Counted from the first letter of the stretch, positions 9,701-36,458 are shown. The stretch is DNA of 64,000 nt from Bacteroidota bacterium (GCA_020161435.1 JAIUNV010000007.1:62001-126000), one strand, 5' to 3'. The notes: a model not told the origin generated them from the sequence alone. Program-made: numbers and translations.

Positions 9701-9832
9701 AATGGGCTGGCGTGGCATTATACCTGGTATGACCAAAACGTAGCCTGGGCAAAGCTGGAGCTGGCTGCTCATACTGCCCAGATTGGCCTGTGGGCAGAGA
9801 AACAACCAGTTGCACCGTGGGAGTGGCGGTAA
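9701..9832 (+). pseudogene. Thermonuclease C-terminal fragment (copy A)
   Basis: A 43-codon fragment with the C-terminal signature of staphylococcal nucleases: NGLAWHYTWYDQN, then a Glu/Ala-rich helix and IGLWAEKQPVAPWEWR before the stop. There is no start codon and no N-terminal half. A second, more diverged fragment (GLAWYYTRYDQHAARAKMD) lies in the first unit near 9441-9500 and runs into the hairpin at 9537. Confidence 0.75.
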
Positions 9833-9931
9833 ATGCAGTAATGTAATGGTTATGGGATATTGTTGCTGTATTTGGCGCCTGTTTCGTGAGCCACGAACCA
9901 AGGCGGAGCTTATGCTGAGAATTGATTTTTA

Positions 9932-17024: not shown

Positions 17025-17222
17025 CCAAGGCTGAGTATAATTTGGAAAAAAAATTAAGAAAGTAACTTTTTTCAGACAAAATCACCGATTTTCAGCAAAG
17101 TTTCTCCTGGAACAACCTCGAACCGGGAGCGTGATGATTACAAATTGGACCCATTTTGGGACCCCTGTTCGGTATTGTTCGAAAGAGATGCCTCTTTTTC
17201 ATAATAAATCAAACCGAACACA

Positions 17223-19326: not shown

Positions 19327-19900
19327 GGTTCCCGATAGCTATCGGGATGGCCGTGCCTGCTCTTCCCTCTGTGTTGCGGGTTGACTTGTTGTGGTAGTTT
19401 TTTTGGGGTTGGTAGGTTGGTAGGTGTGTGGGAGTGGCCTGGCATTATACCCGGTATGACCAACACGCTGCATGGGCGAAGATGGATGGTTTGATGGTAC
19501 GAGCCAAGGTGTTGCATGGGTTAGCATGTACTTTTTGCCTTGATGCAAAAAGTACCAAAAATCCCGATAGCTATCGGGACAAGGCCAACCCGATCCCTCC
19601 AGGCTCCCGATTGCTATCGGGATGGCCGTGCCTGCGCCTCCCTCTGTGTGGCGGGCTGACTTGTTGTAGTAGTTTTTTTGAGTTGGTAGGTTGGTAAGTT
19701 GGTAAGTGTGAGGGCTGGCGTGGCATTATACCCGGTATGACCAAAACGTAGCCTGGGCGAAGCTGGAGCTGGCTGCCCGTACTGCCCAGATTGGCCTGTG
19801 GGCAGATAAACAACCTGTTGCGCCGTGGGAGTGGAGGTATATGCAGTAAATGGTATGGGATGATGCCGCTGTATGAGGTGCTTGTTTCGTGAGCCACGAA
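19327..19900 (+). repeat. Thermonuclease-fragment repeat, copy B (two units)
   Basis: Two tandem units arranged as in copy A. Unit 1 begins with the palindrome TCCCGATAGCTATCGGGA (19329-19346), has a GGTTGGTA tract near 19409-19426, and then a GVAWHYTRYDQHAAWAKMD fragment that runs into the hairpin at 19528-19555 (arms GTACTTTTTGC / GCAAAAAGTAC). Unit 2 repeats the palindrome, the G-rich tract and the nuclease fragment, and ends with the TTCGTG hairpin (19886-19900). The block separates the KTSC cluster from the Iet-like pair. Confidence 0.8.
19712..19849 (+). pseudogene. Thermonuclease C-terminal fragment (copy B)
   Basis: A 45-codon fragment encoding the best preserved C-terminal third of the nuclease: GLAWHYTRYDQNVAWAKLEL, then AARTAQIGLWADKQPVAPWE and WRYMQ before the stop. 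GLAWHY and GLWAD..PVAPWEWR are characteristic of the staphylococcal nuclease family. No N-terminal catalytic half is attached. Confidence 0.75.
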
Positions 19901-19923
19901 CCAAGGCACAGCTAAGCTACCAA

Positions 19924-22479
19924 TTATGATGATATTGGAATTGGGACCGCTATCAGCATTTCGACAGGAGTATAAATGTCTACTTCCTTTACAGGAGTTT
20001 CAATTGAGATAATCAAACTATACCGAACTGATGTATTGTAGCGGTTCAATCTTTTGCGTGTACGGTACCAACCTGCCTTGGGAAAGATGGCTAAATAATG
20101 CCGGTCTGCCAATTCAGCACCGCTTACCGTGAGCATGTCTTTTTTGATAGATCCTTTGTTCCGGACCCTTTCTTTAATGAACCAGTCTTCACCTTTCTTA
20201 TTGGCTGGCATGATTTCTTCTAGTTCATCCTCCTCTTCTAGCACGGATGCTGCCGATACTCTTCTTTGAAAATGATCAAGCGATTCTCCTGGTTTTATGA
20301 GCTTAAAGTCGAGACTGTGTGAGTGATAGGAGAAAGACCTCGCATATTGCCGGTTGCCCGGGTTGGGTTCAATAAAATAGGAGAGCGTAATGGTAATGGT
20401 TGCATTCTTTTCTGCCACTTCATGCAGCAGCACTGCTCTTGGCCAAGGTAGCTCATACAGGTGATATTCATTGTAGCGTACATTGCTTTTTCCCAGTTTG
20501 TATGGAATGATGTGTTCCTGAGCGATAAGCGTCAGAGAATTGTTAGCACTGCTAACGGCTTTCGAAATATTTGGCACACCATATCCTACCGATCGAATCA
20601 ATGATCTTCGTTCATTTTCTGACAAGGTATGAATGGCCTTCCCGGCCAACATGGCTGGTGTCCATTCGGCACTATGAATGAGCAGACCTCTTATGGTCTC
20701 TGGCCATAAGTCAGGATACTGGTGCTGTAGCATAGACGCCATGTTTGCCACCATGGCAGAGGCTCCACTGGTGCCACCAAATGGAATGAAAATATTTCGG
20801 TTGAAATTCTTATCTATTGAAAGTGGGTTTAGTTGATCGTTGTGTAGTAAGTCGTTGCCATCTATTTCCTGGTTTCCCCCTTCCATTACAATGTCCGGCT
20901 TGTTGGGCCACTGGCCTTCCCATGCAGCTGAAGTGCTGTTAAATGGCGACATGCCGCCATAGGGTGCAATGGCAGCGTTAGCGCTGTTGCTCATTTTGTC
21001 CTTTTGGGTAAATGCGCCAACGGTGATAGCGTTGTAAGCCTGGCCGGGGTCTTTTACTGAAGAAATGAAATTATTGTTGGGGTATTGTTGGGGATGATTG
21101 AGCCAAACATTTCCACCGCTCACGATAAATAGCTTTTTCGGATCGCCTTCATAACTGCCACCAAAACACAATTTGTCAATAGCTGCGGCGCTGGATGTGG
21201 GTCGGCCTCCATTGTCCAAATCTTCATTAGTTATTGCCAGGCAATAGACTCTTTGATTATTTGGCCTTTCGGATAGCACTGTATTGCACCCGTCCCGATA
21301 AATGATACCATACAACTTGGCGTCATTGGCTGTGCCAGGCCGCACAATTTTAAATGACTCCACACCATGCACGATGCTGATGCGTGCCGGACTTGCCAAA
21401 GCCTCGGTCAGGTCGCCATAAAAGGCAAGGCCTGCCATACCCGTACCATGTCCACCTCTTTCCCATGAATCAGCCACACCCCAATCAGGATTCCAGGTAT
21501 GTAAGTGATCTCCGGGTATCAATGGCTGTAGCAAGGGGTGCATATGATTGACGCCTGAATCCAATAGGCAGACCAGCACTTTGTCAGGGTCTCCATTTAC
21601 ATCAGTCCGTCTTATTAAGTCATCCAGCCATTCCTGCTTTTCGGTAAAGGTTACAGACCTGTCGGTGATGAAATCATTCAGCTGCTGTGGTTTGCGCAGT
21701 TCTGATAAGGAGTCCAGCAGGAACAAGGATCCGCTAAGCTGCCTCGCACTGGCTTTTACCAACTGCACTATATGCTCGGGAAACTCAAGTGCGCCTACTC
21801 CTAAGTCTGCTCCAGCTAACTGCAGTTGTGTTCGTAGCGTGTCTGCGTTATATGCCTGTTTGTGGAACCATACTTCCCACCAAACTACTTCGTCTTCGGT
21901 TGGAAAGGGTGCTTTTTTTGAACTTTCAGCCCAGAAAGCCGCCAGGGTGGCTAACTGAATGTCTTCAATATTGGCGATTAAGTCATTGGATGCCGGCTTG
22001 CCAGTATCCTCTCCTCTATAGCGTCCGTTTCGCTCCAAATACCTTGTTACCTGCGTAATGAAATGGGAGATGCCACCTTTCTTAAGCATTAGCAACGACC
22101 GATAGCGAAAGTTTGTTTTTGGATCATCGTTGCCATTCTGGGCCTCCCTTTTTGTGGACAGTAGCAGATAATGTGGGTCCTCCACAGTATGGATAAGGCG
22201 CTCAAAGTTTAGTTCATACCCCCAAGGAGAAACAAACTCCACATAAACTACCTCATCCCAACGGATACCATTATCCACCAGCTCATTTCGGGTGGCTTCG
22301 TCTTGTTCAAAACGATTGAGTACCTGTTGCATTTGCTGCAGCAATCGTTGGCCATGCTGCTGCCGATTGCGTACCATTACCTTAAAAGTAGAACCTGTAG
22401 GTCGAGGGTACTTGTATTCCTGAGACTGCTGAAAACGTTGGGGGAGAATGAGGTGTGGTTTCTGAAAAGAGTGGGCCAT
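19924..22479 (-). CDS. ietS: Subtilisin-like S8 protease (IetS-like)
   Basis: An 851-residue S8-family serine protease without a signal peptide. The catalytic triad is visible: D307 (LLDSGVNHMHP), H344 (GGHGTGMAGL) and S571 (GGTSGASAMVA). The usual proline after the serine motif is an alanine. About 290 N-terminal residues and 200 C-terminal residues (beta-rich) flank the catalytic domain. A cytoplasmic subtilase directly behind an AAA ATPase gene is the layout of the ietAS locus, first described as a plasmid-stability system and later listed among anti-phage systems. Its start lies three bases after the ATPase stop, so the pair is coupled. The substrate is unknown. Confidence 0.88.
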   Translation of the reverse strand: MAHSFQKPHLILPQRFQQSQEYKYPRPTGSTFKVMVRNRQQHGQRLLQQMQQVLNRFEQDEATRNELVDNGIRWDEVVYVEFVSPWGYELNFERLIHTVEDPHYLLLSTKREAQNGNDDPKTNFRYRSLLMLKKGGISHFITQVTRYLERNGRYRGEDTGKPASNDLIANIEDIQLATLAAFWAESSKKAPFPTEDEVVWWEVWFHKQAYNADTLRTQLQLAGADLGVGALEFPEHIVQLVKASARQLSGSLFLLDSLSELRKPQQLNDFITDRSVTFTEKQEWLDDLIRRTDVNGDPDKVLVCLLDSGVNHMHPLLQPLIPGDHLHTWNPDWGVADSWERGGHGTGMAGLAFYGDLTEALASPARISIVHGVESFKIVRPGTANDAKLYGIIYRDGCNTVLSERPNNQRVYCLAITNEDLDNGGRPTSSAAAIDKLCFGGSYEGDPKKLFIVSGGNVWLNHPQQYPNNNFISSVKDPGQAYNAITVGAFTQKDKMSNSANAAIAPYGGMSPFNSTSAAWEGQWPNKPDIVMEGGNQEIDGNDLLHNDQLNPLSIDKNFNRNIFIPFGGTSGASAMVANMASMLQHQYPDLWPETIRGLLIHSAEWTPAMLAGKAIHTLSENERRSLIRSVGYGVPNISKAVSSANNSLTLIAQEHIIPYKLGKSNVRYNEYHLYELPWPRAVLLHEVAEKNATITITLSYFIEPNPGNRQYARSFSYHSHSLDFKLIKPGESLDHFQRRVSAASVLEEEDELEEIMPANKKGEDWFIKERVRNKGSIKKDMLTVSGAELADRHYLAIFPKAGWYRTRKRLNRYNTSVRYSLIISIETPVKEVDIYTPVEMLIAVPIPISS

Positions 22480-22482
22480 AGT

Positions 22483-23457
22483 TTATTGTCTTTTCTGTAA
22501 TGCCTGTGTGAGGTGCGCCGTTGATATGGCGGGCAGTTCTTCAATTATCATTTCTTTGATGCCTTCTTCGCAAGCCTGTACAATTTGTGCGTGGTTAAGG
22601 CCTGTGGCCAGCCTGGCTATATCATGCAGGTCAAACCTGGCTTCTTTGGCGAAACCCTGCAGGGAGCGGCTGATCAGATTTTCAATTTCTTCGGTATCTG
22701 GTAGAGGATAAGCAATCACTTCATCAAAGCGGCGGAATAAAGCTTTATCCAGCATGTCGGGCAGGTTTGTAGCTGCAATGATGATGCTGTTGCTTTGGTC
22801 CTTCTCAATGTGGATAAGGAAGCTGTTGAGGATGCGTTTGATTTCGCCGACATCCTGCCCTTTATCGCGGTGGCTACCAATGGAGTCGAACTCATCGAAG
22901 AGGTAAACGCCACGATTATCTACCATGGCTTCAAAAATGAGGCGCAGCTTGGCAATGGATTCGCCCATGAATTTGGAAACGATACCATCGAGGCGCACAA
23001 TGAATACTGGAATGCCCAGTTCACCCGCCAATGCCTGTGCTGTCATGGTTTTGCCTGTGCCGGGCGGGCCCACCAGTAGCAGCTTGCGCTTGGGCTGTAA
23101 ATTGAATTGCTGCAGTTTCTCCCAATGCTTTTGCTCCTTCACCAGCTTTTGCAGCGATTGCGCAACAGGCTTGCTCAACACCATTTCTTTGAGGCGCACC
23201 TGAGGGTAGAACACATCTATTAAATCTTTCAGTTCCCGTTTGGGCTGCAGAATTGGTATGGTCTTGGCCCTGTCGGCATAAGCAACCGACCTGTAGGCTT
23301 TCGCCTTTTCAATCAGCAATTTCAGCTCATGTGCCAGGTTTGTATGCCCTTTGCGGGCTTCCATGGCAGCAATTTGCAAGGCCGATGAAAAGAAACGTTC
23401 TTCATCGCCTTCGCCAAAATAGCGGATCATGCTCTTGATTTGGTCAGATGCTGCCAT
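22483..23457 (-). CDS. ietA: AAA+ ATPase (IetA-like)
   Basis: A 324-residue AAA+ ATPase. An N-terminal helical region (about 1-110) precedes Walker A LLVGPPGTGKT (G130-T137), the pore-loop region KFMGES, Walker B GVYLFDEFDSIG (D188, E189) and sensor-1 IIAATNLPD, with arginine fingers at LFRRFDE. It belongs to the FtsH/katanin-like group that partners S8 proteases in ietAS loci. It probably feeds or restrains the protease. Repeat copies lie beyond both ends of the pair, so the unit may have arrived as a block. Confidence 0.87.
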   Translation of the reverse strand: MAASDQIKSMIRYFGEGDEERFFSSALQIAAMEARKGHTNLAHELKLLIEKAKAYRSVAYADRAKTIPILQPKRELKDLIDVFYPQVRLKEMVLSKPVAQSLQKLVKEQKHWEKLQQFNLQPKRKLLLVGPPGTGKTMTAQALAGELGIPVFIVRLDGIVSKFMGESIAKLRLIFEAMVDNRGVYLFDEFDSIGSHRDKGQDVGEIKRILNSFLIHIEKDQSNSIIIAATNLPDMLDKALFRRFDEVIAYPLPDTEEIENLISRSLQGFAKEARFDLHDIARLATGLNHAQIVQACEEGIKEMIIEELPAISTAHLTQALQKRQ

Positions 23458-23577
23458 ACTGCGAATCTAAAAACTTGTAGGGTATAAATAATTATCAAGA
23501 ATTGCCCAGATGTTAATTTCAATCATTTTCATTTATTGAAAGAGGGTAATTACGAATGATTGAGGCAGAAGATGGAA

Positions 23578-23984
23578 GTACGGATACGGCTGCATGGGAT
23601 TGATTGCCCGGAGGGTAATATGTACTTTTTGCCTTGATGCAAAAAGTACCAAAAAAATCAAGGCAAACCCGATGGCTCCGCCCGTTTTGCCTTGCCTGCT
23701 CCTCCCTCTGTGTGGCGGGTTGACTTTTGTGATTGAGGCTGCTTTTTTGAGGTTGATAAGTTTGGAGATTGGTAAGTTGGTAGGTGTGTGGGAATGGCCT
23801 GGCATTATACCCGTTATGACCAAAACGTAGCCTGGGCGAAACTGGAGCTGGCTGCCCGTACTGCCTGGGTTGGCCTGTGGGCAGATAAACAACCTGTTGC
23901 GCCTTGGGAGTGGCGGTATATGCAGAAAGGGGATGGGATGATGCAGCTGTATTAGGGCCTTGTTTCGTGAGCCACGAAACAAGG
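23578..23984 (+). repeat. Thermonuclease-fragment repeat, copy C
   Basis: A single-unit copy and the clearest example of the layout. The N-terminal nuclease piece VRIRLHGIDCPE (23578-23613) breaks off and is followed by the hairpin at 23622-23649 (arms GTACTTTTTGC / GCAAAAAGTAC), a C-rich part and the GGTAAGTTGGTAGG tract. The C-terminal nuclease piece resumes at 23791. The end is a perfect hairpin, arms CCTTGTTTCGTG / CACGAAACAAGG (23958-23984). It looks as if an element of about 180 bases replaced the middle of the nuclease gene. Confidence 0.8.
23791..23955 (+). pseudogene. Thermonuclease C-terminal fragment (copy C)
   Basis: A 54-codon fragment: GMAWHYTRYDQNVAWAKLEL, then WVGLWADKQPVAPWEWRYMQ and a short extension to the stop. 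It lacks a start codon and the catalytic N-terminal half; a small piece of that half lies about 180 bases upstream. Confidence 0.75.
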
Positions 23985-24174
23985 CGATGGGATTAAAGTT
24001 AGCTTAATACTAAGTGAGTTGTCACGTTGTTAAGTAGTTAAGCAATCGTTTTTGATATAGATTCACCATAAAGTTAGCTTTTCTGCATATTTTTTTGCTA
24101 AAAAGTATAATGCACTGATTATCAATTTGAAAAAAACATGTAACCAATCTGCATTATTATATTTAATAGGACTA
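23985..24174. other. Upstream region of the Argonaute operon
   Basis: A short AT-rich region between the end of repeat copy C and the first gene of the Argonaute operon. The promoter should lie here. A GTATAATG sequence at 24107-24114 is a possible core element, but I could not pair it with a -33 box. A TTG-initiated extension (from 24127) is possible but adds an atypical N-terminus. Confidence 0.35.
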
Positions 24175-24768
24175 ATGAGATATCAATCAATAATTCAATT
24201 AATTGAGATAAAAGACCCAAAAGGCTTAGAAGAATTATATCAAGCCTATGGAAGTAGATTTTATGCCTATGCGGTTCAACGGTGGCATTTAACAGAAGAT
24301 GAAGCTTGGGACGTAGTTTATAAAACATTAGAAACGCTGGTATTAAAGCTTTCCAATTATCAATTTCAATCCCAGGCTCTTTTTGAAGGTTTTTTATTCA
24401 AGGTGTTAGTCAATTTTTTAAGGCAACATTTTAGGAGTAAGAGGAATAGTCATCAGGGTGAAATAGATTTTGTGGATTTGAATAATGAAAGAGAAATGCC
24501 TTACCAGATAAGTAAACAAATCAGCAAATCTGCTTTTTCTGATTATTATAAAACCGAAACAGTAGAGAATCCGGCACTCGTAATGTTAAATGAGGCATTA
24601 AGCAAATTGGAACCACATGAAAAAGATATTTTATTGTTGAGAGCACAGAATTACACTTACGATGAAATAGCCGACTTATTAGGTATTGATAACAACCAAT
24701 TAAAAGTAAAGCATCATAGAGCAAAACAAAAATTACTTAATCTGATTAACGAATCACAAAACAAATAA
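24175..24768 (+). CDS. Sigma-70-like (ECF-type) sigma factor
   Basis: A 197-residue protein with the two-domain plan of extracytoplasmic-function sigma factors. Region 2 covers about residues 15-95 (LEELYQAYGSRFYAYAVQRW through FKVLVNFLRQHFRSKRN). Region 4 covers about 135-185, with an HTH in TYDEIADLLGIDNNQLKVKH. Its ATG at 24175 suits the family. It heads a six-gene operon in which the next gene begins one base after its stop. It may drive its own operon or act as a DNA-binding adaptor. No classical anti-sigma (zinc-finger HxxxCxxC) is seen nearby, although the next protein could take that role. Confidence 0.82.
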   Translation: MRYQSIIQLIEIKDPKGLEELYQAYGSRFYAYAVQRWHLTEDEAWDVVYKTLETLVLKLSNYQFQSQALFEGFLFKVLVNFLRQHFRSKRNSHQGEIDFVDLNNEREMPYQISKQISKSAFSDYYKTETVENPALVMLNEALSKLEPHEKDILLLRAQNYTYDEIADLLGIDNNQLKVKHHRAKQKLLNLINESQNK

Positions 24769-24769
24769 A

Positions 24770-25366
24770 ATGGACGCTCCCAAAAAAATAGATACTCTTG
24801 ATGAAGCACTAAGAGTGATTTTCTTAGAGAGTGCCAAAGACACAGATGCAGCTGGCGTTGGAGTGCAAATATTACTATCTTCTCCGGTATCTGTAAATAT
24901 GAGTGATGAAAAAAAAGCACTCATCATTCAACAATTGAATGCTGTTATTACCTCTTTATCATTTGGACAGCTATTGCAGCTGGCAATGCAAAATCTGAAT
25001 ACAACAGATGAAGTGGTTGCTGAAAAATCTAAGCTTCCCATTACTGTAATAGCAGATTTGAAAAACGATAGCATCTATACAAACAATGTTCCAATAGTTC
25101 TTTTCAAAGGCTTGCTTACAAATTTGAATCTTTCTTTTAAGCCCGTTGAAGAAGCTATCCGTAAAACATTTGAGATGTTGCAAAGCCAAGTTGGAATAAA
25201 GAGCAATAATTTTTCCGGCTTCAGTCCTGCTTTTCGAAAGGGATATTATACATCAAGAGAATTACTTTCAAAAAATGCTCCGAATACAGATGGTAAAGAG
25301 TTATTTGAGAATAAAGAAGCCCTTGATAAATACCTGGCAAGATTAAATGAACTGATGAATAACTAA
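24770..25366 (+). CDS. Unknown protein after the sigma factor
   Basis: A 198-residue soluble protein with no domain I can name. The middle (LPITVIADLKNDSIYTNNVP followed by LNLSFKPVEEAI) has the feel of small XRE-like or anti-sigma-like proteins that follow ECF sigma genes, but no zinc ligands or membrane span are visible. The C-terminus is rich in Lys, Asn and Leu (ALDKYLARLNELMNN). One base separates it from both neighbours, so it is firmly part of the operon. A sigma-modulating role is a guess from its position. Confidence 0.7.
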   Translation: MDAPKKIDTLDEALRVIFLESAKDTDAAGVGVQILLSSPVSVNMSDEKKALIIQQLNAVITSLSFGQLLQLAMQNLNTTDEVVAEKSKLPITVIADLKNDSIYTNNVPIVLFKGLLTNLNLSFKPVEEAIRKTFEMLQSQVGIKSNNFSGFSPAFRKGYYTSRELLSKNAPNTDGKELFENKEALDKYLARLNELMNN

Positions 25367-25367
25367 A

Positions 25368-26384
25368 ATGATGACAGAAAAAGTAAGTTGGTCATATTCT
25401 ACAGTAAATACGCTACGGCAATGTAATAGAAAATATTACTTCGGGAGCGTACTGGCAAACTTTGGGCGTAAAGACCTTTTAAGAAGGAAAGCATATGAAT
25501 TGAAGAAAATGCAAAACCTGGTAATGTGGAAAGGAACAGTAGTAGATAAGTTTATGGAAACAACAGTAATTCCTGCAATCATTGAAAAAAAAGAACTTGA
25601 TTTCAACAGGTTAGGTGACGAAGCTGTGGCCTTGGCGAAAAATCAATTTGATTTTTCAAAATTTCAGATTTATACCGACCCTACTGTTACTAAAACAGAA
25701 GCAGCTAATGAGTTTTGTATCTTGGATATTCATGAGATAGGGAAAATTTATACTGAAGAAGAATTGGCACAAACATATTCGCTGATAAGAGATGCTGTAT
25801 TGAATATACCAACCATCAAAATGCCTGATGGCAAATTGCTGATAGATTTTTTGAAAGAGTGTAATCTATTGTTGCCTAACGTAAGTAACTGGCAGGTTGA
25901 AGTTGAGAAGGCGAGAGTAAAACCCCAGATGGACTTAATTGCTTACCATAACTGGAAACCAGTAGTGATTGATTGGAAGCTTTCCGAAAGTTATGCCGCA
26001 GATTATTCACGTCAATTAATTATTTGTGGTATTACTGTTTATTTGAAAAGACTGGAAAAAACTGATAAGAAGCCTTATGAGTATGCAGATATAAAACTTT
26101 TTGAAGTAAATCTTCTCAAAGGAGTGGTTAAGGAGCATGTCTTTTCCGAAGAAAAGATTAACGATATGATTGATTACATCAATCTTACGAGTAAAGATAT
26201 TGCATTGCTTACAGACACTCCCGATGGGGCGCCTGTAGACATTGAAGATTTTGAATTGACAGATAATGAAGGTTCTTGTAAATTTTGCAACTACCGTTCT
26301 CTATGTTCATTTTTATTGCTAAACGAAAATCAATACGATGAGAAATCATACTTTGAATTTGTACAAAATAACCAACTTGTCTGA
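25368..26384 (+). CDS. Cas4/RecB-like PD-(D/E)XK nuclease with Fe-S-type cysteines
   Basis: A 338-residue nuclease of the RecB/AddB/Cas4 group (PDDEXK_1). The core motifs are all visible: an acidic strand WQVEVE (E178/E180), D189 in QMDLIAYHN, D202-x-K204 in VVIDWKLS and the RecB-type Q216 in SRQLIICG. Cysteines C19 (RQCNRKYYF) and C304, C307, C313 (CKFCNYRSLC) are placed as in Cas4 and AddB, where four cysteines hold a [4Fe-4S] cluster. Its last 47 bases overlap the start of the Argonaute gene, so the two are translated together. It is a likely DNA nuclease working with the Argonaute, perhaps for guide making or target degradation. Confidence 0.87.
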   Translation: MMTEKVSWSYSTVNTLRQCNRKYYFGSVLANFGRKDLLRRKAYELKKMQNLVMWKGTVVDKFMETTVIPAIIEKKELDFNRLGDEAVALAKNQFDFSKFQIYTDPTVTKTEAANEFCILDIHEIGKIYTEEELAQTYSLIRDAVLNIPTIKMPDGKLLIDFLKECNLLLPNVSNWQVEVEKARVKPQMDLIAYHNWKPVVIDWKLSESYAADYSRQLIICGITVYLKRLEKTDKKPYEYADIKLFEVNLLKGVVKEHVFSEEKINDMIDYINLTSKDIALLTDTPDGAPVDIEDFELTDNEGSCKFCNYRSLCSFLLLNENQYDEKSYFEFVQNNQLV

Positions 26385-28728
26385 TTTGGATTTTTCTTAC
26401 AAGTTGGTTGAGTTTGACCTGCCTTCTGTGGATGGCAAAGAAGATTTATACAATAAACAGTTGCAAAAAATAGCTCAAAAAGTATCTTCAGTTACCGGAG
26501 GTCCTGCTGCTATCTTGAAAAGAGACGGCAAAATGTACATTGCTATTCCTGGGGATAGAAATTTGCGGGAAATGAAGGTTGATGTAACACCTTTCAATAT
26601 ATCGGTAAAGATGCTGGCAGATGTTTATCATATCCAGTCATCGAGTATTACTGCAGACAATATAGATGTAGTGCAGAAATTTCTTGAATTTGAGATACGA
26701 AGACAACTGACTAATAATAACCAGCTTTGGAAGCTTAACACAAGCCAGTTCTTTTTGAAGAAACCCGTTTACAGCAGTGAAGAATCAACGATTGAAATTT
26801 TCGGAGGGTTTACCTTCAAGCTTGTGAGGCTTTCGGATGGCAATTTCTACATCTGTTTAGATTTAACTTCAAAATATATTGACAAACATTATTTGTCTCA
26901 TTATGTAAACGAAACGAATGCAAATACAGTTGGAGCAAGGTTTAGGGGCAGGCGTTTCTTATATCTTAATGGGGATGATTGGTACACTACAGAAGTGGTT
27001 GGATTTGGAAAGAATATTAAAGAGCATGAGTTTAGCTTCGATGGGAAAACTCATAATGTATTCGACTACATAAGCAATAAAACAAACAACCATCAGTTCA
27101 GTGCTGTTTCCTTAGTGAAGCCAACAGATATAACAATGTTGTACAAATATCCTGGCAGGTCTATGGAACCTCATAACGGAGCTTCTTCGTTGGCTAAAAT
27201 GCTATATAGCACCAATGACAATGAAGTTAAGGCTTTGCACAGGTATTCAATCAAAGACCCTTCAAGAAGATTTGATGCTATAGGGAAGAACATCAACAGG
27301 TATTTCCAGAATATCACTTTCAACAGAAAGCCATTGAATATTACTGCCAGTCCAGTTGTTGAACAGGTTAGAAACTTTCCAATGCCTGAACTAAAATACA
27401 ACAATGATAGAATATTAAAAGTTGGTCATTACTCAACTGGTGCAAGTGCTCCACTAAGAGAATTTGGTTTTGAAAGAAAACAAAATATCATTGAAAACGG
27501 GGTATTAAACAAATCGACTTTCGATGAACAATTTTTGATAGTTCCTGATTATCTCAATAAAGAATTGGTAGAGGCTTTTAAGAAAAATGCAGAATGGCAA
27601 ATCAAAAAATTAGCTCCTGCCTTTGTGAGTTTCAAAGTTATCAGGTATAAAGTAAGAGAAAATCAGGCGGCTACTTATCAGATCCAGGAGATAGAAAAAG
27701 TATTGCATCAACAAAATGCTTTAAGTGGATTTGCATTATTCCTACTTCCTGATATCTCTTTCGATTCAAGAAGGCATATAAAAAACTTTCACGACTGCCT
27801 GAAAAGTAAATTTTATCCGGGGCTGAAAGTGCAATGTGCTTCTGCATCGAAAATAAAATCATTTTTTATGCCCTTTACTTCTAATAGTAGTAGGGTAATG
27901 GAGTACAAAGTGCCGGAAGACAAAAAGCCACGATTCAGGTCTTACCTGTTTAACTTGGTAATGGAGCATTTGATTGTTAACCGGAAATGGGCTTTTGCTT
28001 TATCCAAAAACCTTCACTACGATATTTATATTGGAGTGGATGTGCACGAAAGATATGCCGGCTTTACGTTTTTCTTTAAAAATGGAGAACACATCTTTTT
28101 CTTTCCTGAACAGGTAGCTAAAAAGAACAAGTCGCAAAGGACGGAAAAACTAAAAGCAGGGCTACTATATAAAATGATTTATGAGAAACTGAAACTATTT
28201 ATCCCTAAGTATGCAGCCAATCCTAATGGTATAGTTATAGTAAGGGATGGCAGAAGTTTCGGTGAGGAAGAAAAAGCATTAAGTAGTGTTATAGAATCAT
28301 TGGCAAGTGATGGCATTGTTAGTAAGGCTACTTTGAAATCCGGAGTGATCGATTTGCATAAGCAAAGTGCAGTCCCCCTACGTGTTGCTTCTCAAACAAA
28401 CAGTTACAATAATTTGGAAAACCCGATAGCCGGAGCATACAAATTGTTTGAAACTACAGAGGGCTTTATTTATAATACAGGTTTTCCATTTCAGATACCT
28501 GGCACTGCTAAGCCTTTACACCTGTCATTAAAAGCAGGAGATGTAGAATTTTTAAAAGTCATGGAAGATGTTTTCTGCCAGAGTATGATGGCATTTTCTG
28601 CACCCGACAGAAGCAACTCATTGCCTGTTACAATTAAACTGATAGATACCTTACTAGAACCGCTGGCTGCTACCGTTGAAGTCATTGAGGAAGAAGAGGA
28701 ATTTGAAGAAACAACAATTGATAACTAA
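26338..28728 (+). CDS. Long prokaryotic Argonaute with intact DEDD tetrad
   Basis: A 796-residue prokaryotic Argonaute (pAgo). The N-terminus (LNLYKITNLSDLDFSYKLVE) is typical of bacterial Agos, followed by N, PAZ-like and MID regions. The PIWI domain has D568 (IYIGVDVHER), E603 (SQRTEKLK), D637 (IVIVRDGRSF) and D770 (VTIKLIDTLL). The first three are spaced 35 and 34 residues apart, as in Thermus Ago (D478/E512/D546), and the last fits D660. NPIAGAYKLF and PGTAKPLHL are also PIWI hallmarks. The tetrad suggests an active guide-directed slicer, unlike most long-B or short pAgos. The ATG at 26338 is supported by the match of the first residues to pAgo starts. The tail ends in an acidic Glu run (EVIEEEEEFEETTIDN). 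Confidence 0.9.
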   Translation: MRNHTLNLYKITNLSDLDFSYKLVEFDLPSVDGKEDLYNKQLQKIAQKVSSVTGGPAAILKRDGKMYIAIPGDRNLREMKVDVTPFNISVKMLADVYHIQSSSITADNIDVVQKFLEFEIRRQLTNNNQLWKLNTSQFFLKKPVYSSEESTIEIFGGFTFKLVRLSDGNFYICLDLTSKYIDKHYLSHYVNETNANTVGARFRGRRFLYLNGDDWYTTEVVGFGKNIKEHEFSFDGKTHNVFDYISNKTNNHQFSAVSLVKPTDITMLYKYPGRSMEPHNGASSLAKMLYSTNDNEVKALHRYSIKDPSRRFDAIGKNINRYFQNITFNRKPLNITASPVVEQVRNFPMPELKYNNDRILKVGHYSTGASAPLREFGFERKQNIIENGVLNKSTFDEQFLIVPDYLNKELVEAFKKNAEWQIKKLAPAFVSFKVIRYKVRENQAATYQIQEIEKVLHQQNALSGFALFLLPDISFDSRRHIKNFHDCLKSKFYPGLKVQCASASKIKSFFMPFTSNSSRVMEYKVPEDKKPRFRSYLFNLVMEHLIVNRKWAFALSKNLHYDIYIGVDVHERYAGFTFFFKNGEHIFFFPEQVAKKNKSQRTEKLKAGLLYKMIYEKLKLFIPKYAANPNGIVIVRDGRSFGEEEKALSSVIESLASDGIVSKATLKSGVIDLHKQSAVPLRVASQTNSYNNLENPIAGAYKLFETTEGFIYNTGFPFQIPGTAKPLHLSLKAGDVEFLKVMEDVFCQSMMAFSAPDRSNSLPVTIKLIDTLLEPLAATVEVIEEEEEFEETTIDN

Positions 28729-28742
28729 TTAAAATAAATTTT

Positions 28743-29186
28743 ATGAGCGACATAAGTGTTCTATCCAATCAGTATGAGCAATTAGTTGCCACATCTGATA
28801 AGGTCAATAATTCTGTAATAGCTTTTAAAAAGAAAAGTTTACTGGACGATGCTGCAACTAAAGCTAAATATCCCAAATTGAGCATATCAACAGAGGAACT
28901 TGCAACAGCAAAGCAAATCCTTTTACTGTTTTTGGAAAATATCATAAAGCTAATAGAAAATGATTCCTTAGAATCAGATTTTATTCCTGCGATAATTTTA
29001 GATGATTATAAAACTCGGTTGTCATTCAAACCATATCTGAAGGATGATTTGAAAAAACTTATCAGTGAGTTAAAACAGAATCAGCAGGTTACCGAAGATG
29101 ATATTGAAGTATTGGATAGCATTTTGTCAATTTTGGATAATGAAAGAAGCATTCTATTTAGAAAATTAAGAACAGCAAGAGGATGA
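28743..29186 (+). CDS. Unknown helical protein of the Argonaute operon
   Basis: A 147-residue protein, 14 bases after the Argonaute stop and overlapping the next gene by four bases (ATGA). It is rich in Leu, Lys, Asp and Glu with long predicted helices (ELATAKQILLLFLENIIKLI, then DDIEVLDSILSILDNER). No domain or cysteine motif is recognised. The tight overlap suggests that it acts with the metallopeptidase, perhaps as an adaptor or inhibitor. Confidence 0.7.
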   Translation: MSDISVLSNQYEQLVATSDKVNNSVIAFKKKSLLDDAATKAKYPKLSISTEELATAKQILLLFLENIIKLIENDSLESDFIPAIILDDYKTRLSFKPYLKDDLKKLISELKQNQQVTEDDIEVLDSILSILDNERSILFRKLRTARG

Positions 29187-30316
29187 TTTCATTTGTAAAA
29201 GGAATTTTTTATGACCAATCTAACCGGGTAACAAAAATGTTATCCGACCTTGCTTCTCCCCAAATAAATGGGGAGATAGATAGGGCTTTTCTGGACAAGA
29301 CAATCCAAATGCTTGAGGATTTAAATGCAGAAATTCAAATCCTCGCCAATTCCGGTGACCTTGATATAGATGCATTGGCTCCGTACAATATTATCCGTTA
29401 TAACACTTTTCATGAGAGGTTATTGACTATTGAATTGTTTCGCTATCTGGTGATAATTAATTATGGAAGCCCTGAAGAATATTTTAAAAAGAAAATCAGC
29501 CGCATTTATACAGAAGTAAACTGTATGCAGAAGCAACCGATTGTTACCACAATCAGCAATTCCCAAGATTATTATTGGGCGCTTCCATCGTATGATGTAA
29601 TTGCCGTGCCTAAAGGCGAACAAAGAAATTTGCTAAATCTGCCGGACTTGTACCATGAAATGGGACATTTGGTTTACAATCAGCATGAAGTTTATTTAAA
29701 AGGAGGAATAGAACCCGTAATCAATCAGTATTATAATGATGAAATGCAACGGGTGCTTACCGAGCAGAGAGATCCAAAGTTGATTCCATTTTTTCGGGAG
29801 AAAAATCAAAGATGGATTAGTGGATGGATAATGGAATTTACATGCGATTTTATAGCAACCTATTTGGTTGGTCCGGCTTATGCCTGGACAAATATGAAAC
29901 TGACTACACTAAGCAGCAGCAACGACAGAGTTTATAAAGACATACCAAGCCATCCATCAGATGAGGCAAGGATGAGAGGCATATTTTATATACTTGAACA
30001 AATGGGGCATAATGCAGAAGTAACACAGCTAAAAAGTAGTTGGCAGGATTTTTTAACGGCTACAAATAACCCCATCCCCGCAAATTATAATTATATCTTC
30101 CCTCAACGCATTATTGAGCACTTGGCAAATAATGTTTTATCAGGATGTCAGGCAATAGGTCTTATAGCATATAATGAGCAGATTAGAAAATTCGGAAAGC
30201 CCATTTCCAAAATACTAAATGATGCTTGGTATGAATTATTTAGAAATCCTGCTGGCTTTAAAGGATGGGAAGAAGAAAGAATTTCTGAAATTAATGGGTT
30301 GATCGAAAGAAGGTAA
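29183..30316 (+). CDS. HExxH metallopeptidase-like protein of the Argonaute operon
   Basis: A 377-residue soluble protein with a zinc-peptidase motif HEMGH (H158, E159, H162). About 56 residues later comes WIMEFTCDFIATYLVGPAYA, where E218 or D222 would be the third zinc ligand of a gluzincin- or aspzincin-type site. A SHPSDEARMRG segment follows, as in several poorly known metallopeptidase families. No signal peptide is visible, so it should act in the cytoplasm. It closes the operon. A protease next to an Argonaute is, to my knowledge, not a described arrangement; it could cleave a host target, the sigma factor or a partner protein. Confidence 0.8.
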   Translation: MISFVKGIFYDQSNRVTKMLSDLASPQINGEIDRAFLDKTIQMLEDLNAEIQILANSGDLDIDALAPYNIIRYNTFHERLLTIELFRYLVIINYGSPEEYFKKKISRIYTEVNCMQKQPIVTTISNSQDYYWALPSYDVIAVPKGEQRNLLNLPDLYHEMGHLVYNQHEVYLKGGIEPVINQYYNDEMQRVLTEQRDPKLIPFFREKNQRWISGWIMEFTCDFIATYLVGPAYAWTNMKLTTLSSSNDRVYKDIPSHPSDEARMRGIFYILEQMGHNAEVTQLKSSWQDFLTATNNPIPANYNYIFPQRIIEHLANNVLSGCQAIGLIAYNEQIRKFGKPISKILNDAWYELFRNPAGFKGWEEERISEINGLIERR

Positions 30317-30630
30317 GTGATAGTTTAAGTAACCTTATTATAGTGAGTATTAGATAGAGTATAGAAGATATATTTTTATATTAATTTCTATTCTTAATGA
30401 ATTATGATACTGAAGTGATTCATGTAGTTCTTTGGTGTTGTGTTTTTTCAGTTGAACCAATTAAATATTTGATTTATAAACTATATAAAATTAGGAAAAA
30501 CATTTAAATCAAAGGATAAAAACGAAATACTGTACTTAAGCACAAGCATAACGTTTAAATTTACATTTAAGCTATTTACTGTGACTTATATTTATTTGTC
30601 AAAGTCGCAATTTGAATAATATAAAAAATA
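30317..30630. other. AT-rich stretch after the Argonaute operon
   Basis: About 310 bases of very AT-rich sequence with no open frame of interest. It probably holds the 3' untranslated part of the Argonaute operon up to the terminator at 30631. Confidence 0.4.
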
Positions 30631-30676
30631 AAAGTTGTGGCCTTTCGTTGTTAAAAGCGAAGACCACAACTTTTTT
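30631..30676. terminator. Bidirectional terminator after the Argonaute operon
   Basis: A 10-base-pair stem AAAGTTGTGG / CCACAACTTT, extended inward by a few pairs, is followed by TTT on the plus strand. The upstream A-rich bases give a T run on the minus strand. It sits between the Argonaute operon (stop 30316) and the minus-strand 48-residue gene, and could serve both. Confidence 0.75.
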
Positions 30677-31802: not shown

Positions 31803-31987
31803 TCCCGATAGCTATTGGGATCGGCTTTGCAAACTGTGGTTCGACGAGCTCACCACAGCAGAGCTTACCACTGCAGAGGGTGGTTCGAGTCTGTGGTTCG
31901 ACAAGCTCACCACAGCAGTAATCACCACAGCAGTAATGTAGCAGACAGCTACTGGATTATCATCCATGCTTCGACTAGCTCAGCATG
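31803..31987. repeat. Cluster of REP-like inverted repeats
   Basis: Upstream of the SusC gene there are several short palindromes: TCCCGATAGCTATTGGGA (31803-31820), two copies of an inverted repeat with arms CTGTGG/CCACAG around TTCGAC.AGCTCA (31834-31858 and 31891-31915), and CATGCT...AGCATG around TCGACTAGCTC (31965-31987). Sequences of the TTCGAC..GCTCA type are common dispersed repeats in Bacteroidota. No gene of note lies here. Confidence 0.7.
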
Positions 31988-32089
31988 GCATTACGTATAG
32001 CAGGCCTATCGTGGGGGCCTGGGGGCTGTCTGTTGTCGGTTATCCTTTCATTTTTTATCCGGAGCCCCACGGTTCCGACAAAACATTTT

Positions 32090-35065
32090 ATGATGATGCG
32101 CATACGTGTGTATGGCTTGGTGGCCATGCTATGGCTGTGGGGGAGTGCCATGGGGCAGCCTCTTATGAAATCCTTAAAGGGTCAAATTGTTCATGCGGTT
32201 ACCCAAAGCCCGGTGGCTGGTGCCAGTGTATTGGTGTTGCCAACGGGTGCTATGGTGGTGAGTGATGAGCAAGGTGTGTTTGGTTTTCTTCAGGTCCCTC
32301 AAGATGCCGTGTTGCAGGTGAGTGCCGTTGGTTTTCGAACAGCAACCGTGGCGGTGAATGGCAGGGATTCGATACAAGTACTGCTGGAGCCTGTAGTGGC
32401 TGCCTTGGATGAAGCCATTGTGATTGGCTATGGCAAAACCAGCCGCCGTTTGAGCACAGGAAGTGTGGGGAAGGTAGACGCGGCGACGATTGAACGGCAA
32501 CCGGTGACCAATGTATTGGCGGCACTACAAGGCAGGGTTGCTGGGCTTTGGGTGGAGCAAAGCAATGGGTTGCCCGGTTCGAACTTCAATGTAGAAATCA
32601 GGGGGCGCAATTCTATCGGTGGAGGTACCAGGCCATTGTTTGTTGTAGATGGTGTGCCATGGATGCAGAATGTAAACCCGGGTTCATTGGCTACGGGTTT
32701 GGCGCCGAATCCGCTGAACAGTTTGAACCCTGCTGATATAGAGCGGGTGGAGATATTGAAGGATGCAGATGCCACAGCGATTTATGGTGCTGCAGCAGCC
32801 AATGGTGTGGTGTTGATTACGACGAAGAAAGGGGGGCAGGGAGCCAGTAGCTTTAGTGTCAATTTTTTCAGCGGTGCGGGTGTAGTGACAAGGGGGACAC
32901 CCCAATTGGCCACAGCCTCTTATCTGGCGATGCGTCGTATTGCATTTGCCTTGGATGGTGTAAACCCGAGTGTATCTACCGCGCCGGATTTGTTGTTGTG
33001 GGACAGTACCCGCTATACAGATTGGGCAGGGGAGCTCACCGGCGGTGCGGCATCGCTGGTGAACCTGCAGGGCAGTTTGCGGACAGGTAGTAAAACGTTG
33101 CAGGTATTGTTGAGCGGGCAGTATCAATCTCAAACAACGGTGTTTCCACAGACGCAGCCGACCACGAGGGGCTCTGGCATGCTGAGTGTGGTATACCGGG
33201 GATTGAAAGACCGGTTGGGGGCTACGTTGCAGCTGAATTATGGGATATTCAATATCCGGACGCCGGTGTTTGATTTGGCCAATTTCATGTATTTGCCGCC
33301 GAACGCACCGGCTGCCTATGACAGTACGGGGAAACTGACCTGGACCAACTGGACAGGAGCGGACAACCCGATGGCCCAGTTGGAGCGGCGGTTTGAGCAC
33401 CGCAATGCCACGCTGAACAGCAATCTGGTATTGGATTACCGGTTGCTGCCGGGTTTGGTACTCAAAGCCACCGTAGGGTATAACGATGCATTGACGGAGG
33501 AGTACCGGTCTTTTCCTATCAGCAGTAAGCGGCCTGCAGCGGGCCTAACGGCAGAGGCCAGTTATTTTGATTACAGCCAGCGTAACTGGATAGCGGAGCC
33601 TTATTTGGTGTACAATGTAAAAAAGGGTCGTTGGAAGGCCGAATGGACGCTGGGAGCCAGTTGGCAGGAGCGGCTTTATCAATCGACCAGCATCAATGGA
33701 ACACAGTATACAACGGATGCGTTGCTGCGGAATGCGGCCGCTGCAGGGCAGTTGTCGGTAGTGAGTGGTTATAGTCAGTACCGGTATCAATCTTATTTTG
33801 GCCGATTGAGCACCCATTGGGCAAACCGGTACCTGCTGAATCTGAGTGTTCGGCAGGATTACTCCTCCCGATTTGGACCGGCGAACCGGCGGGCCTTGTT
33901 TGCAGCTGTTGGGGCTGGTTGGGTATTATCGGAGGAGCAATGGTGGAAGCGACGTGTACCGTGGGCGTCATTTATGAAGTTGCGGGGCAGTTATGGTAGT
34001 ACGGGCAATGATCAGATTGGTGATTATGCTTTTTTGGATGCCTGGGGCGTTCCTTTTGCTGGCCGCTATCAAAACAATCTGAGTTTGGTGCCGCAGTCGT
34101 TGTTCAATCCGTATTTGCAGTGGGAGCGTAACCGGAAGTTGGAATTGGCGATGGAAGGTGGGTGGTGTCAAAACCGGCTGATGCTGACTGTGGCCTGGTA
34201 TCGCAACAGGTGTGATAATCAACTGACGGGTTATGCGTTGCCCACACAAACCGGGTTTTCGAGTATTGCAGACAATCTGGATGCTGCCATTGAAAACAGT
34301 GGCTGGGAAATTGACTTGCAGGGCACTGCTGTTATGCAGAAGGATTGGAAATGGCAAATGGGTTTGAACCTTACGTTGCCCCAGAGCCAGTTGCTGTCTT
34401 ATCCGGACATAGAGCAAACGCTCAACAGATTTGTGTATCAGGTGGGGGCACCGTTGGATATACGGTTTGGCTATCAGTATGAGGGCGTGGACCCGCAGAC
34501 AGGGCTGTATCGATTTACGGATCAGAACGGTGACGGGCGATTGTCGAGCACGAATGATTATGTGCCGGTAGGCCGCATTGGGCGTCGGGCATTTGGTGGT
34601 ATCAACCAACAGTTGCAATGGAAGGGCTGGCAACTGGACTTGTTTTTTCAGTTTGTACAGCAAACGGCGAGAGCTTGGTTTGCCAGTATGCCAGTGGCAA
34701 CAGGTTCGTTGGGCAACCAGCCTGCTTGGGTGAAAACTGGCGCTTGGTCGGGTGCCGGTGATAACAGTGCCTTGCAGCGGTATACGACAAGGGCGGGGGC
34801 TGCCACAACCGCCTACCGCAATTTGCAGAATTCATCAGCAGCCATTGTGGATGCCAATTACATACGCCTGAAGAATGTATCGGTATCGTGGACGATACCG
34901 GAAGCATGGAGAGCCCGGCTGCGGTTGAAAGAAGCCCGGTTGTATGTGCAGGCGCAAAACATGATTACCTGGACTGACTATGAAGGTGGGGACCCCGAAA
35001 CGGCCAATTTGCGCAGCCTTGCGCCGTTGCGGATGATAACCGGCGGCATTTTCATTACACTTTAA
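32090..35065 (+). CDS. SusC/RagA-type TonB-dependent outer-membrane transporter
   Basis: A 991-residue SusC-type receptor from the ATG at 32090, which opens a signal peptide (RVYGLVAMLWLWGSAMG). An N-terminal carboxypeptidase-like beta-sandwich (GQIVHAVTQSPVAGASVLVL) is followed by the plug domain (RQPVTNVLAALQGRVAGLWV, then the RGRNSIGGGTRPLFVVDGVP motif) and a 22-strand barrel. It works with the SusD-like lipoprotein encoded 10 bases downstream to import a ligand with TonB energy. An upstream start at 31985 would add 35 atypical residues. No glycoside hydrolase or sigma/anti-sigma pair is next to it, so the ligand cannot be guessed. Confidence 0.92.
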   Translation: MMMRIRVYGLVAMLWLWGSAMGQPLMKSLKGQIVHAVTQSPVAGASVLVLPTGAMVVSDEQGVFGFLQVPQDAVLQVSAVGFRTATVAVNGRDSIQVLLEPVVAALDEAIVIGYGKTSRRLSTGSVGKVDAATIERQPVTNVLAALQGRVAGLWVEQSNGLPGSNFNVEIRGRNSIGGGTRPLFVVDGVPWMQNVNPGSLATGLAPNPLNSLNPADIERVEILKDADATAIYGAAAANGVVLITTKKGGQGASSFSVNFFSGAGVVTRGTPQLATASYLAMRRIAFALDGVNPSVSTAPDLLLWDSTRYTDWAGELTGGAASLVNLQGSLRTGSKTLQVLLSGQYQSQTTVFPQTQPTTRGSGMLSVVYRGLKDRLGATLQLNYGIFNIRTPVFDLANFMYLPPNAPAAYDSTGKLTWTNWTGADNPMAQLERRFEHRNATLNSNLVLDYRLLPGLVLKATVGYNDALTEEYRSFPISSKRPAAGLTAEASYFDYSQRNWIAEPYLVYNVKKGRWKAEWTLGASWQERLYQSTSINGTQYTTDALLRNAAAAGQLSVVSGYSQYRYQSYFGRLSTHWANRYLLNLSVRQDYSSRFGPANRRALFAAVGAGWVLSEEQWWKRRVPWASFMKLRGSYGSTGNDQIGDYAFLDAWGVPFAGRYQNNLSLVPQSLFNPYLQWERNRKLELAMEGGWCQNRLMLTVAWYRNRCDNQLTGYALPTQTGFSSIADNLDAAIENSGWEIDLQGTAVMQKDWKWQMGLNLTLPQSQLLSYPDIEQTLNRFVYQVGAPLDIRFGYQYEGVDPQTGLYRFTDQNGDGRLSSTNDYVPVGRIGRRAFGGINQQLQWKGWQLDLFFQFVQQTARAWFASMPVATGSLGNQPAWVKTGAWSGAGDNSALQRYTTRAGAATTAYRNLQNSSAAIVDANYIRLKNVSVSWTIPEAWRARLRLKEARLYVQAQNMITWTDYEGGDPETANLRSLAPLRMITGGIFITL

Positions 35066-35075
35066 AAGAATCAGC

Positions 35076-36458
35076 ATGACAAATAACAATAGGATTTCAA
35101 TAAAGGGCATCAGTATATGCTTGTTGCTGTTGATGTCGGCATTGGGGTGCCAGCGTTTTATAGAAGTGAAAGAACCTGCCCAGCAGGTAACAGCTGGCGC
35201 TGTATTTAGTGATGACATGAATGCTACAGCTGCTATCAATGGGATTTACAGCCAGATGATTGGCGGTTCATCCAGTTTCAGTAGCTGGATGACGACTGTT
35301 TTGGCAGGGGCGGCGGCAGATGAATTATTGCGTTTTAATGCCAGTGTAGAAGAGCAGGAGCTTGTGACCAATGCCATAACGCCGGACAACAATCTGGTCA
35401 GTATTCTTTGGACGTCGGCTTACAGAACAATTTATCAATGCAATGCTGCCATCGAAGGGTTGGGGCGACCCAGTGCGGTGAGTATGCCGGTCAGGAATCA
35501 GTTGTTGGGAGAGGCGCATTTTGTCAGAGCCTTTTGCTATAGTTATCTGGTGCAATCATTTGGTGATGTGCCTTTGGTGTTGACGACGGACTGGGCCAGT
35601 AATCAGGGACTGAGCAGAAATGCAGTAGCAGAAGTGTATGAACGCATTTTATCGGATTTGCAAAAAGCGGGTTCGTTGATGTCTGTGAGTTATCCATCGG
35701 CCATGAAAGGACGGCCTAATAAGTGGTCAGCCGTTGCTTTCAGCGCAAGGATTTTGCTGCTATTGGGGCGTTGGGAAGAGGCCGCTCTGGCTGCTACTGA
35801 AGTGCTTGACAAGGGCGGGTATCTGCCGCTGCCCAGCTTGCCACAGGTGTATTTGGCGAATAGCCGGGAAGCTATCTGGCAACTGGTGCCAGATGCGGTG
35901 AATTATGGGTATGTACCAGAGTTGCGGATGCCTCCATTTTATACAGCGAATGTGCCGGGATATTATTTGCGGCCAGACCTCATGATGGCATTTGAGCCGG
36001 GTGACAGGCGGAGGAGTGCCTGGGTAGACAGTGTGCAGTATCTGGGTACCAGATACTACTATCCGGGGAAGTACAAGAGCCTGAGTGGCAATACAGAATA
36101 CTATGTGGTATTGAGAGCTGCAGAGTTATTGTTGATACGTGCAGATGCGAGGGCAAATATGGGCTATATAGCTGAAGGGATGCAGGATGTAAATGCGGTC
36201 CGCCTCCGGGCACAATTGCCTATACTGTCCGGAGCAATGAGTAAGGATGAGTTGTTGGCGGCAGTGTATCGGGAGCGTAGAGTGGAGTTGTTTGCAGAAT
36301 GGGGACATCGTTGGTACGATCTGAAAAGAACGGGCAGGGCAACGCAGGTATTAGGGAGGTTAAAGCCTGATAGCTGGCAGCCACATGATACCCTTTGGCC
36401 GATTCACTCGGGGCAGCTGGTGTTGAACCCTGCGCTCCGGCAAAACGAAGGGTATTGA
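35076..36458 (+). CDS. SusD/RagB-type nutrient-binding lipoprotein
   Basis: A 460-residue SusD-family lipoprotein. The signal peptide (GISICLLLLMSALGC) ends in a lipobox with the cysteine near residue 25. The tetratricopeptide-like helical body includes NQLLGEAHFVRAFCYSYLVQ and the C-terminal hallmark YRERRVELFAEWGHRWYDLK. It caps the SusC barrel and holds the ligand at the cell surface. It starts 10 bases after susC. Confidence 0.93.
   Translation: MTNNNRISIKGISICLLLLMSALGCQRFIEVKEPAQQVTAGAVFSDDMNATAAINGIYSQMIGGSSSFSSWMTTVLAGAAADELLRFNASVEEQELVTNAITPDNNLVSILWTSAYRTIYQCNAAIEGLGRPSAVSMPVRNQLLGEAHFVRAFCYSYLVQSFGDVPLVLTTDWASNQGLSRNAVAEVYERILSDLQKAGSLMSVSYPSAMKGRPNKWSAVAFSARILLLLGRWEEAALAATEVLDKGGYLPLPSLPQVYLANSREAIWQLVPDAVNYGYVPELRMPPFYTANVPGYYLRPDLMMAFEPGDRRRSAWVDSVQYLGTRYYYPGKYKSLSGNTEYYVVLRAAELLLIRADARANMGYIAEGMQDVNAVRLRAQLPILSGAMSKDELLAAVYRERRVELFAEWGHRWYDLKRTGRATQVLGRLKPDSWQPHDTLWPIHSGQLVLNPALRQNEGY

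Follow-up and report, generated by a model that had tools for sequence, protein, structure and literature searches.

We analysed a 64,000-nt stretch of DNA from a Bacteroidota bacterium (GCA_020161435.1 JAIUNV010000007.1:62001-126000; hereafter the window), which is part of contig C7 of a 4.19-Mb genome in eight contigs, and which carries at 24175-30316 a putative defence operon built around a prokaryotic Argonaute (pAgo). Calling of open reading frames (ORFs) in the window gives six on the plus strand, with intergenic gaps of 1, 1, -47, 14 and -4 bases; layout, gaps and coordinates agree exactly with those of a first-pass annotation made from the sequence alone. The genes, which we name sig, g2, nuc, ago, g5 and pep, encode an extracytoplasmic function (ECF)-type sigma-70 family factor (24175..24768, 197 aa), a protein of 198 aa for which there is moderate evidence of a Cro/C1 (XRE)-type helix-turn-helix (HTH) fold (24770..25366), a Cas4-like PD-(D/E)XK nuclease (25368..26384), a long, active-type Argonaute (26338..28728), a 147-aa protein (28743..29186) and a predicted cytosolic zincin metallopeptidase (29183..30316). 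The -47 overlap between nuc and ago is the median among related loci with a sigma factor, and the -4 overlap between g5 and pep equals the median of both operon types described below.

The operon encodes a predicted DNA-guided RNA nuclease of the PnyAgo group

The Argonaute, the only one of its kind in the 4.19-Mb genome, matches the PADLOC pAgo_II model. Its catalytic tetrad (D568/E603/D637/D770) is 100% conserved in 70 relatives and agrees with the DEDD tetrad reported for PnyAgo, so the first-pass annotation was right to call it an active-type enzyme. The closest solved relatives are PDB 8xih/9wmd, which align over nearly the full length (1050 bits), the first 203 residues of 8xih being 99.5% identical to the Argonaute of a related locus in Mucilaginibacter polytrichastri (L047). 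Some 2.5 kb downstream of its operon, that genome also encodes a second, shorter Argonaute homologue of 522 aa (L047:10634-12202). The nuclease encoded by nuc matches PADLOC Aga_Cas4-like_Nuc (E=2e-52), with residues D189, D202, K204 and Q216, together with Cys 19, 304, 307 and 313, at least 99% conserved among 69 relatives. This set of four invariant cysteines resembles that of Fe-S nucleases and suggests an enzyme of the Fe-S-cluster type.

Such a combination has a published precedent. According to the searched text of Lisitskaya et al. 2022 (PMC9360449), D-R pAgos are a unique class: nucleases that cut RNA under the direction of DNA guides, with their biological role and the origin of the guides left open. 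They fall into two groups, each preceded by a Cas4-like nuclease, one coming with an HTH regulator and the other with a sigma-70 factor. The window operon belongs to the latter, the PnyAgo group (PnyAgo, HpeAgo, MpaAgo), with which it shares the Argonaute clade, the DEDD tetrad, the preceding Cas4-like PD-(D/E)XK nuclease and the sigma-70 factor. The window Argonaute is 34% identical to that of the Pedobacter nyackensis PnyAgo locus (L057), in which all six genes are present and the tetrad positions match. By analogy with the biochemistry of these relatives, as given in that text, ago is predicted to use DNA guides to cut RNA, which narrows the "guide-directed nucleic-acid cutting" of the first-pass annotation.

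The same annotation knew of no described system combining a sigma factor and a zinc protease. The pairing of Argonaute, Cas4-like nuclease and sigma factor was in fact published in 2022, but we found no account of the peptidase. In the searched text of PMC9360449, which names only nuclease, regulator and sigma factor, the word "protease" is absent, and there is no mention of a peptidase, g5, the HTH of g2, promoter elements or Ago-less variants; its figures lie outside that text and might include a drawn, unlabelled gene. The searched text of the pAgo surveys of 2009 and 2018 makes no mention of a peptidase either, in a search that left out subscription journals. We found no prior description of what is added here, namely pep with its partner g5, an HTH in g2, the elements for autoregulation and the operons that lack the Argonaute.

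The peptidase and g5 are obligate partners of this Argonaute group

Conservation of the operon was assessed from both ends. Starting from the peptidase and taking no account of Ago, a scan of 84,980 genomes, which relies on one conserved peptide around the HE residues and so misses distant relatives, returned 76 loci, with an Argonaute beside pep in 67. Among the nine others, two (L106, L115) run into a contig end and one (L067) has a broken pep gene. Conversely, Ago-first searches found pep downstream of the Argonaute in 15/15 genomes, in one of which a contig end cuts pep. There are 61 loci, including the window and some near-duplicates, that hold all the genes of their type, and in 59 of them gene order and strand are identical, far more often than chance would give. 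The six genes thus form one unit, to which the protease and the dedicated sigma factor belong, being kept with the Argonaute across genomes. The first-pass annotation would have been overturned had the flanking genes never co-occurred with this Argonaute group, and they do co-occur. Hosts include Bacteroidota, Pseudomonadota, Chloroflexota, Planctomycetota, Cyanobacteriota, Acidobacteriota, Gemmatimonadota and others, and five plasmid records carry the peptidase. A phage or prophage origin was considered and rejected: no peptidase was found in viral contigs or phages, and no Argonaute in viral contigs, the latter a weak negative given the strict scan patterns.

Two operon forms can be distinguished. 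The sigma form of the window (sig-g2-nuc-ago-g5-pep) has a sister (xre-nuc-ago-g5-pep), missed by the first-pass annotation, in which an XRE repressor replaces sig and g2. This sister form corresponds to the PliAgo group (PliAgo, RslAgo), which differs by the absence of a sigma factor and the presence of palindromic operators. In Runella plasmid pRUNSL03, for example, the RslAgo gene (WP_013921749.1) lies in a run annotated HTH, PD-(D/E)XK, Ago, hypothetical, hypothetical, the last of which is pep. Both RslAgo and PnyAgo were assayed, according to the searched text of PMC9360449. In a tree of peptidases, the sigma and XRE clades are separate; the partnership with the peptidase is therefore older than the difference in regulators.

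A predicted zincin without a named family

The product of pep displays the motif H158-E-x-x-H162...E218-x-x-C-D222...H257-P...R263, whose residues are 99-100% conserved in 74 relatives. Its AlphaFold2 model (pLDDT 95) is mostly helical and zincin-like, with H158, E159 and H162 on a helix spanning residues 154-173 and a candidate third ligand, E218, on a helix spanning residues 200-229, all four invariant. On the basis of motif and model, we predict that pep is a zincin metallopeptidase. It has no Pfam, PADLOC or NCBIfam family, 20 members giving isolated weak Pfam hits only. The HExxH...ExxxD...HP..R layout looks M48-like by eye, and assignment to M48 was rejected, with only one of the 20 members matching, at E=0.011.

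The small protein g5 has no family in Pfam, PADLOC or NCBIfam. It is present directly before pep in 92 of the 97 loci examined, and we propose that it acts as an adaptor or inhibitor of pep.

A profile search of 396 same-phylum genomes found no further pep outside operons of this kind, except for a remote zincin beside a dCTP deaminase and a doubtful short match. The former, a 468-aa protein on the minus strand (L149:289-2316), bears the same HExxH...W..E..CD...GPAY...HP signature as pep, and hints at a wider, unnamed zincin family, perhaps with other defence partners. In an Acidobacterial locus, the pep homologue (L106:419-2764) is fused to a C-terminal part of about 400 aa that matches CBASS SAVED/M48 peptidase effectors and contains a second HExxH.

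Regulators of the two operon forms and their putative autoregulatory sites

As for the regulators, sig matches TIGR02937 (E=4e-17) and Pfam Sigma70_r4_2 (E=3.5e-11). Region 4, like the TIGR02937 superfamily, is above cut-off and region 2 weak (E 0.038), which, with region 3 missing, we counted as ECF-type; the fold resembles ECF sigma factors in Foldseek searches. An alternative TTG start would extend sig to 24127, but the ATG at 24175 is preferred because the extension crosses the conserved promoter element described below.

The first-pass annotation had left the second gene as an unknown. When searched as a single sequence, g2 matches no family and does not reach the curated cut-off for a Cro/C1 HTH. 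Among 24 relatives, however, the weak Pfam matches seen most often are HTH_26/HTH_3/HTH_19 (best E 0.02), an hhalign comparison of g2 with the XRE regulator profile is collinear across the HTH (P=0.0045), and a modelled sig-g2 fusion has fold matches to Cro, C.BclI and HigA, part of which sigma region 4 may explain; the g2 core of the model (pLDDT ~97) has an XRE-like helix pattern. Three weak, independent signs agree, amounting to moderate evidence for a Cro/C1-type HTH protein, which we propose to be an anti-sigma or repressor partner of sig. In both g2 and the XRE regulators, the HTH is followed by a variable linker, flexible in g2, and a C-terminal tail helix. The tails of g2 and XRE score higher against each other than the XRE tail does against pep or g5, but g5 comes near the score of the g2 tail, so that a shared tail helix is suggestive only. 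Counting the window, the g2 profile is confident in 5/395 genomes: three more are loci in which the operon had already been seen, and the fifth (L140) has all six genes.

Upstream of sig in the window, at 24139..24168 on the plus strand, lies a TGTAACC-N5-GCAT element followed by an A+T stretch and TA. It is found 28-47 nt upstream of the sig start in all 21 sigma-type loci, with one or two changes in a few, in flanks that are otherwise unrelated between loci (chance ~1e-4 per locus). Its GTAACC part resembles ECF -35 boxes. In the XRE form, a GCTTG-N6-8-AGC-type palindrome covers the promoter in 42 of 43 loci, with two copies in 17 (chance ~1% per locus). Both are putative autoregulatory sites, as judged from sequence conservation. 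Exact matches to the TGTAACC element number 10 in this genome, against five for a reversed control. The nine besides the operon's own have no credible gene start close downstream, eight lying in long open frames; the operon therefore probably controls mainly itself, and no wider sigma regulon is claimed. At the other end of the operon, about 310 nt past pep, a possible intrinsic terminator (AAAAGTTGTGG...CCACAACTTTTTT, 30630..30676, plus strand) is proposed tentatively, by eye, its loop exceeding the length covered by the terminator scan.

Recurrent loss of nuc and ago

A further arrangement missed by the first-pass annotation is the Argonaute-free one, in which regulator, g5 and pep persist on their own. 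In L085 and L093, an in-frame deletion fuses the start of nuc to the tail of the Argonaute gene, L064 and L075 retain the apparent first codons of nuc, and L118 consists of xre-g5-pep only. L058 retains sig and g2 with the promoter element, as well as g5 and pep, but a different gene takes the place of nuc and ago. This gene (L058:6124-6534, 136 aa, between g2 and g5) has a GIY-YIG-like motif by eye (GIYFVYT...YVGES), an identity that was dropped for want of a supporting match in Pfam or among PDB sequences. In the peptidase tree, the five entries without Argonaute require four changes, which shows that nuc-ago losses recurred, and the peptidase active site is intact in all five alignable Ago-less loci. 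Since regulator, g5 and pep outlive the loss of nuc and ago with this site intact, pep is best placed functionally with the regulator rather than with the Argonaute.

Genomic context of the operon

Directly left of the operon is an IetA/IetS pair (AAA ATPase and subtilase; 19924-23457, minus strand), a known anti-phage defence system. The defence island described by the first-pass annotation is thus real on this side, but not on the right, where the next large genes are a SusC/SusD-like outer-membrane pair (31985-36458) and the defence context stops. The repeat copies it had noted near the operon are genuine: degenerate repeats, up to ~0.6 kb long and 75-97% similar to one another, lie between genes at 9249-9910, 16735-17037, 19327-19913 and 23567-23991, flank the IetAS pair and the Argonaute operon, and end in a GTTTCGTGAGCCACGAA-like sequence. 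They have no Rfam match and are possible boundaries of inserted modules.

Neighbours of related operons include CBASS, multiubiquitin/ThiF, ApeA, Avs, DRT, LmuA and PD-T4-6 genes. These support a defence role, although without a counted control. For instance, on plasmids of Runella and Spirosoma, D-R Argonaute operons have genes for multiubiquitin, a ThiF-type adenylyltransferase and DUF6527 next to them (L130:10450-12629 and L131:1204-3617). Two other arrangements recur downstream of pep. In several XRE-form operons, a gene of ~720-745 aa follows directly (overlap -4 to gap 60; L041:9929-12082, also L081, L082, L086 and L088), encoding a PIF1-like helicase in L041, the only locus checked. Elsewhere, a pair of genes of ~90 and ~102 aa, with no clear Pfam match, lies just downstream (L030:6373-6956, also L031, L065, L066, L068, L069, L071, L074 and L083).

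Discussion

The reading that we tentatively favour, while giving it somewhat less than an even chance, is that the D-R Argonaute operon is a self-amplifying defence system gated by proteolysis of its HTH regulator. At rest, the regulator, which is g2 in the window and XRE in the sister form, would repress the operon at the conserved promoter element, g2 also restraining the dedicated sigma factor. Upon invasion, pep, held or aimed by g5, would cut the regulator between the DNA-binding domain and the helix at its C-terminus. Freed sig would then transcribe its own promoter, leading to a self-amplifying burst of nuc and ago. The nuclease would chop invader DNA and may supply guides, and the DNA-loaded Argonaute would cut invader transcripts. 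This reading is supported by the obligate co-occurrence in both directions, the split of the peptidase tree by regulator, the order of HTH, linker and tail helix common to g2 and XRE, the conserved autoregulatory sites in both forms, the loss of nuc and ago with regulator, g5 and pep retained, and the defence-island neighbours. Gene content, conservation, active-site residues, promoter elements and the modular loss of nuc and ago are observed here, and DNA-guided RNA cutting is known from relatives; the protease activity of pep, its substrate and trigger, the anti-sigma role of g2, the supply of guides by nuc and the anti-phage function are inferred.

Individual steps have precedents, none of which is a homologue. 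It is established that a metallopeptidase cuts an XRE repressor in IrrE/DdrO (PMC7907104). In IrrE/DdrO and ImmA/ImmR, as here, an HExxH metallopeptidase is encoded with a Cro/C1-type HTH regulator, and the repressor-cleavage logic is the one that we propose. However, pep does not match the Pfam model for M78, its fold is mostly helical, and the operon adds g5, a nuclease and an Argonaute. The release of an ECF sigma factor by a protease in immunity is also established, for CalpL/CalpT/CalpS (PMC11417357). This type III CRISPR-Lon system resembles the operon in combining a protease, a dedicated ECF sigma factor and a putative sigma-restraining protein within RNA-sensing immunity, but it relies on a Lon protease activated by cA4, whereas the window operon encodes a zincin and no cyclase, and its proteins have no Lon or SAVED domain.

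Several points weigh against the proteolytic gating that we favour. The activity of pep and the cleavage of a regulator are steps that we infer. The pep fold has no confident match in the PDB, the nearest sensible one, over 79 columns, being to selecase (4qhf), a small metallopeptidase. Membership of pep in ImmA/IrrE (M78) was rejected, with only isolated weak Pfam hits in 20 members and no such structure among the Foldseek matches shown. The sig-g2 fusion, modelled from L044, a locus where the two genes are in frame and TAA was read as Lys, shows no confident interface (pTM 0.43), the alignment having misplaced the first ~40 residues of g2-only rows. Foldseek matches of this model to Cro, C.BclI and HigA come with unreported aligned residues, and sigma region 4, also an HTH, may contribute to them. 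The GCAT half of the promoter element falls within the usual ECF spacer, so the element is not a textbook ECF promoter, and a second binder such as g2 is therefore likely. Finally, the Ago-less loci might be decaying leftovers.

The strongest competitor, which we consider rather unlikely, makes the protease the output of Argonaute sensing instead of an upstream switch. Target-RNA binding by the DNA-guided Argonaute would activate pep directly, and pep would cut g5, g2 or host proteins, thereby stopping growth and/or releasing the sigma factor. The model for this is Craspase (type III-E gRAMP, TPR-CHAT, Csx30/Csx31 and RpoE; PMC9729208), which likewise brings together a guide-directed RNA-cutting effector, a protease, an ECF sigma factor and small unknown proteins. 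Craspase uses Cas7-11/crRNA and a caspase-like CHAT protease, whereas the window operon has a DNA-guide Argonaute and a zinc peptidase, with no CRISPR array. The strict Ago-pep linkage in both operon types fits such coupling, as does the extra C-terminal domain of the Acidobacterial pep, which is like CBASS M48 peptidase effectors. Yet regulator, g5 and pep persist without the Argonaute in several lineages, the Argonaute is itself of the catalytically active type, and no Ago-pep fusion was seen. A fuller version, in which the operon is an Argonaute counterpart of Craspase, with invader-RNA recognition switching on a new zinc peptidase family, the HTH regulator being cut and sigma freed for a self-amplifying transcriptional response, is in our view doubtful.

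An improbable alternative casts pep as a protease for maturation or quality control, with nuc, Ago or g5 as the protein to be processed or turned over, while the regulator and sigma factor provide ordinary autoregulation unrelated to it. Translational coupling through the -4 overlap and the presence of g5 in nearly every pep locus would fit g5 as a substrate or prosegment, but pep is kept where nuc and ago are gone, and the pairing of an HTH protein with a metallopeptidase has its precedent in repressor cleavage (PMC7907104). We give little credence to pep and g5 forming an addiction module, akin to toxin-antitoxin pairs, that keeps the operon stable and carries the nuclease genes as losable cargo: the survival of regulator, g5 and pep after nuc-ago loss and the five plasmid records would suit it, but most loci keep the whole operon, and the profile search found no free-standing g5-pep loci outside it. 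A chance arrangement in one genome, which the first-pass annotation had named as a way for its claim to fail, is practically precluded by the identical order of 59/61 complete loci across many phyla.

Together, the obligate peptidase and the autoregulatory switch indicate how a D-R pAgo system may be kept silent and set off, and they point to components that would be missing from tests with the Argonaute alone. If pep does respond to the Argonaute or cut the regulator, Argonaute sensing would be linked to proteolysis and transcription, a logic so far known from CRISPR-type systems.

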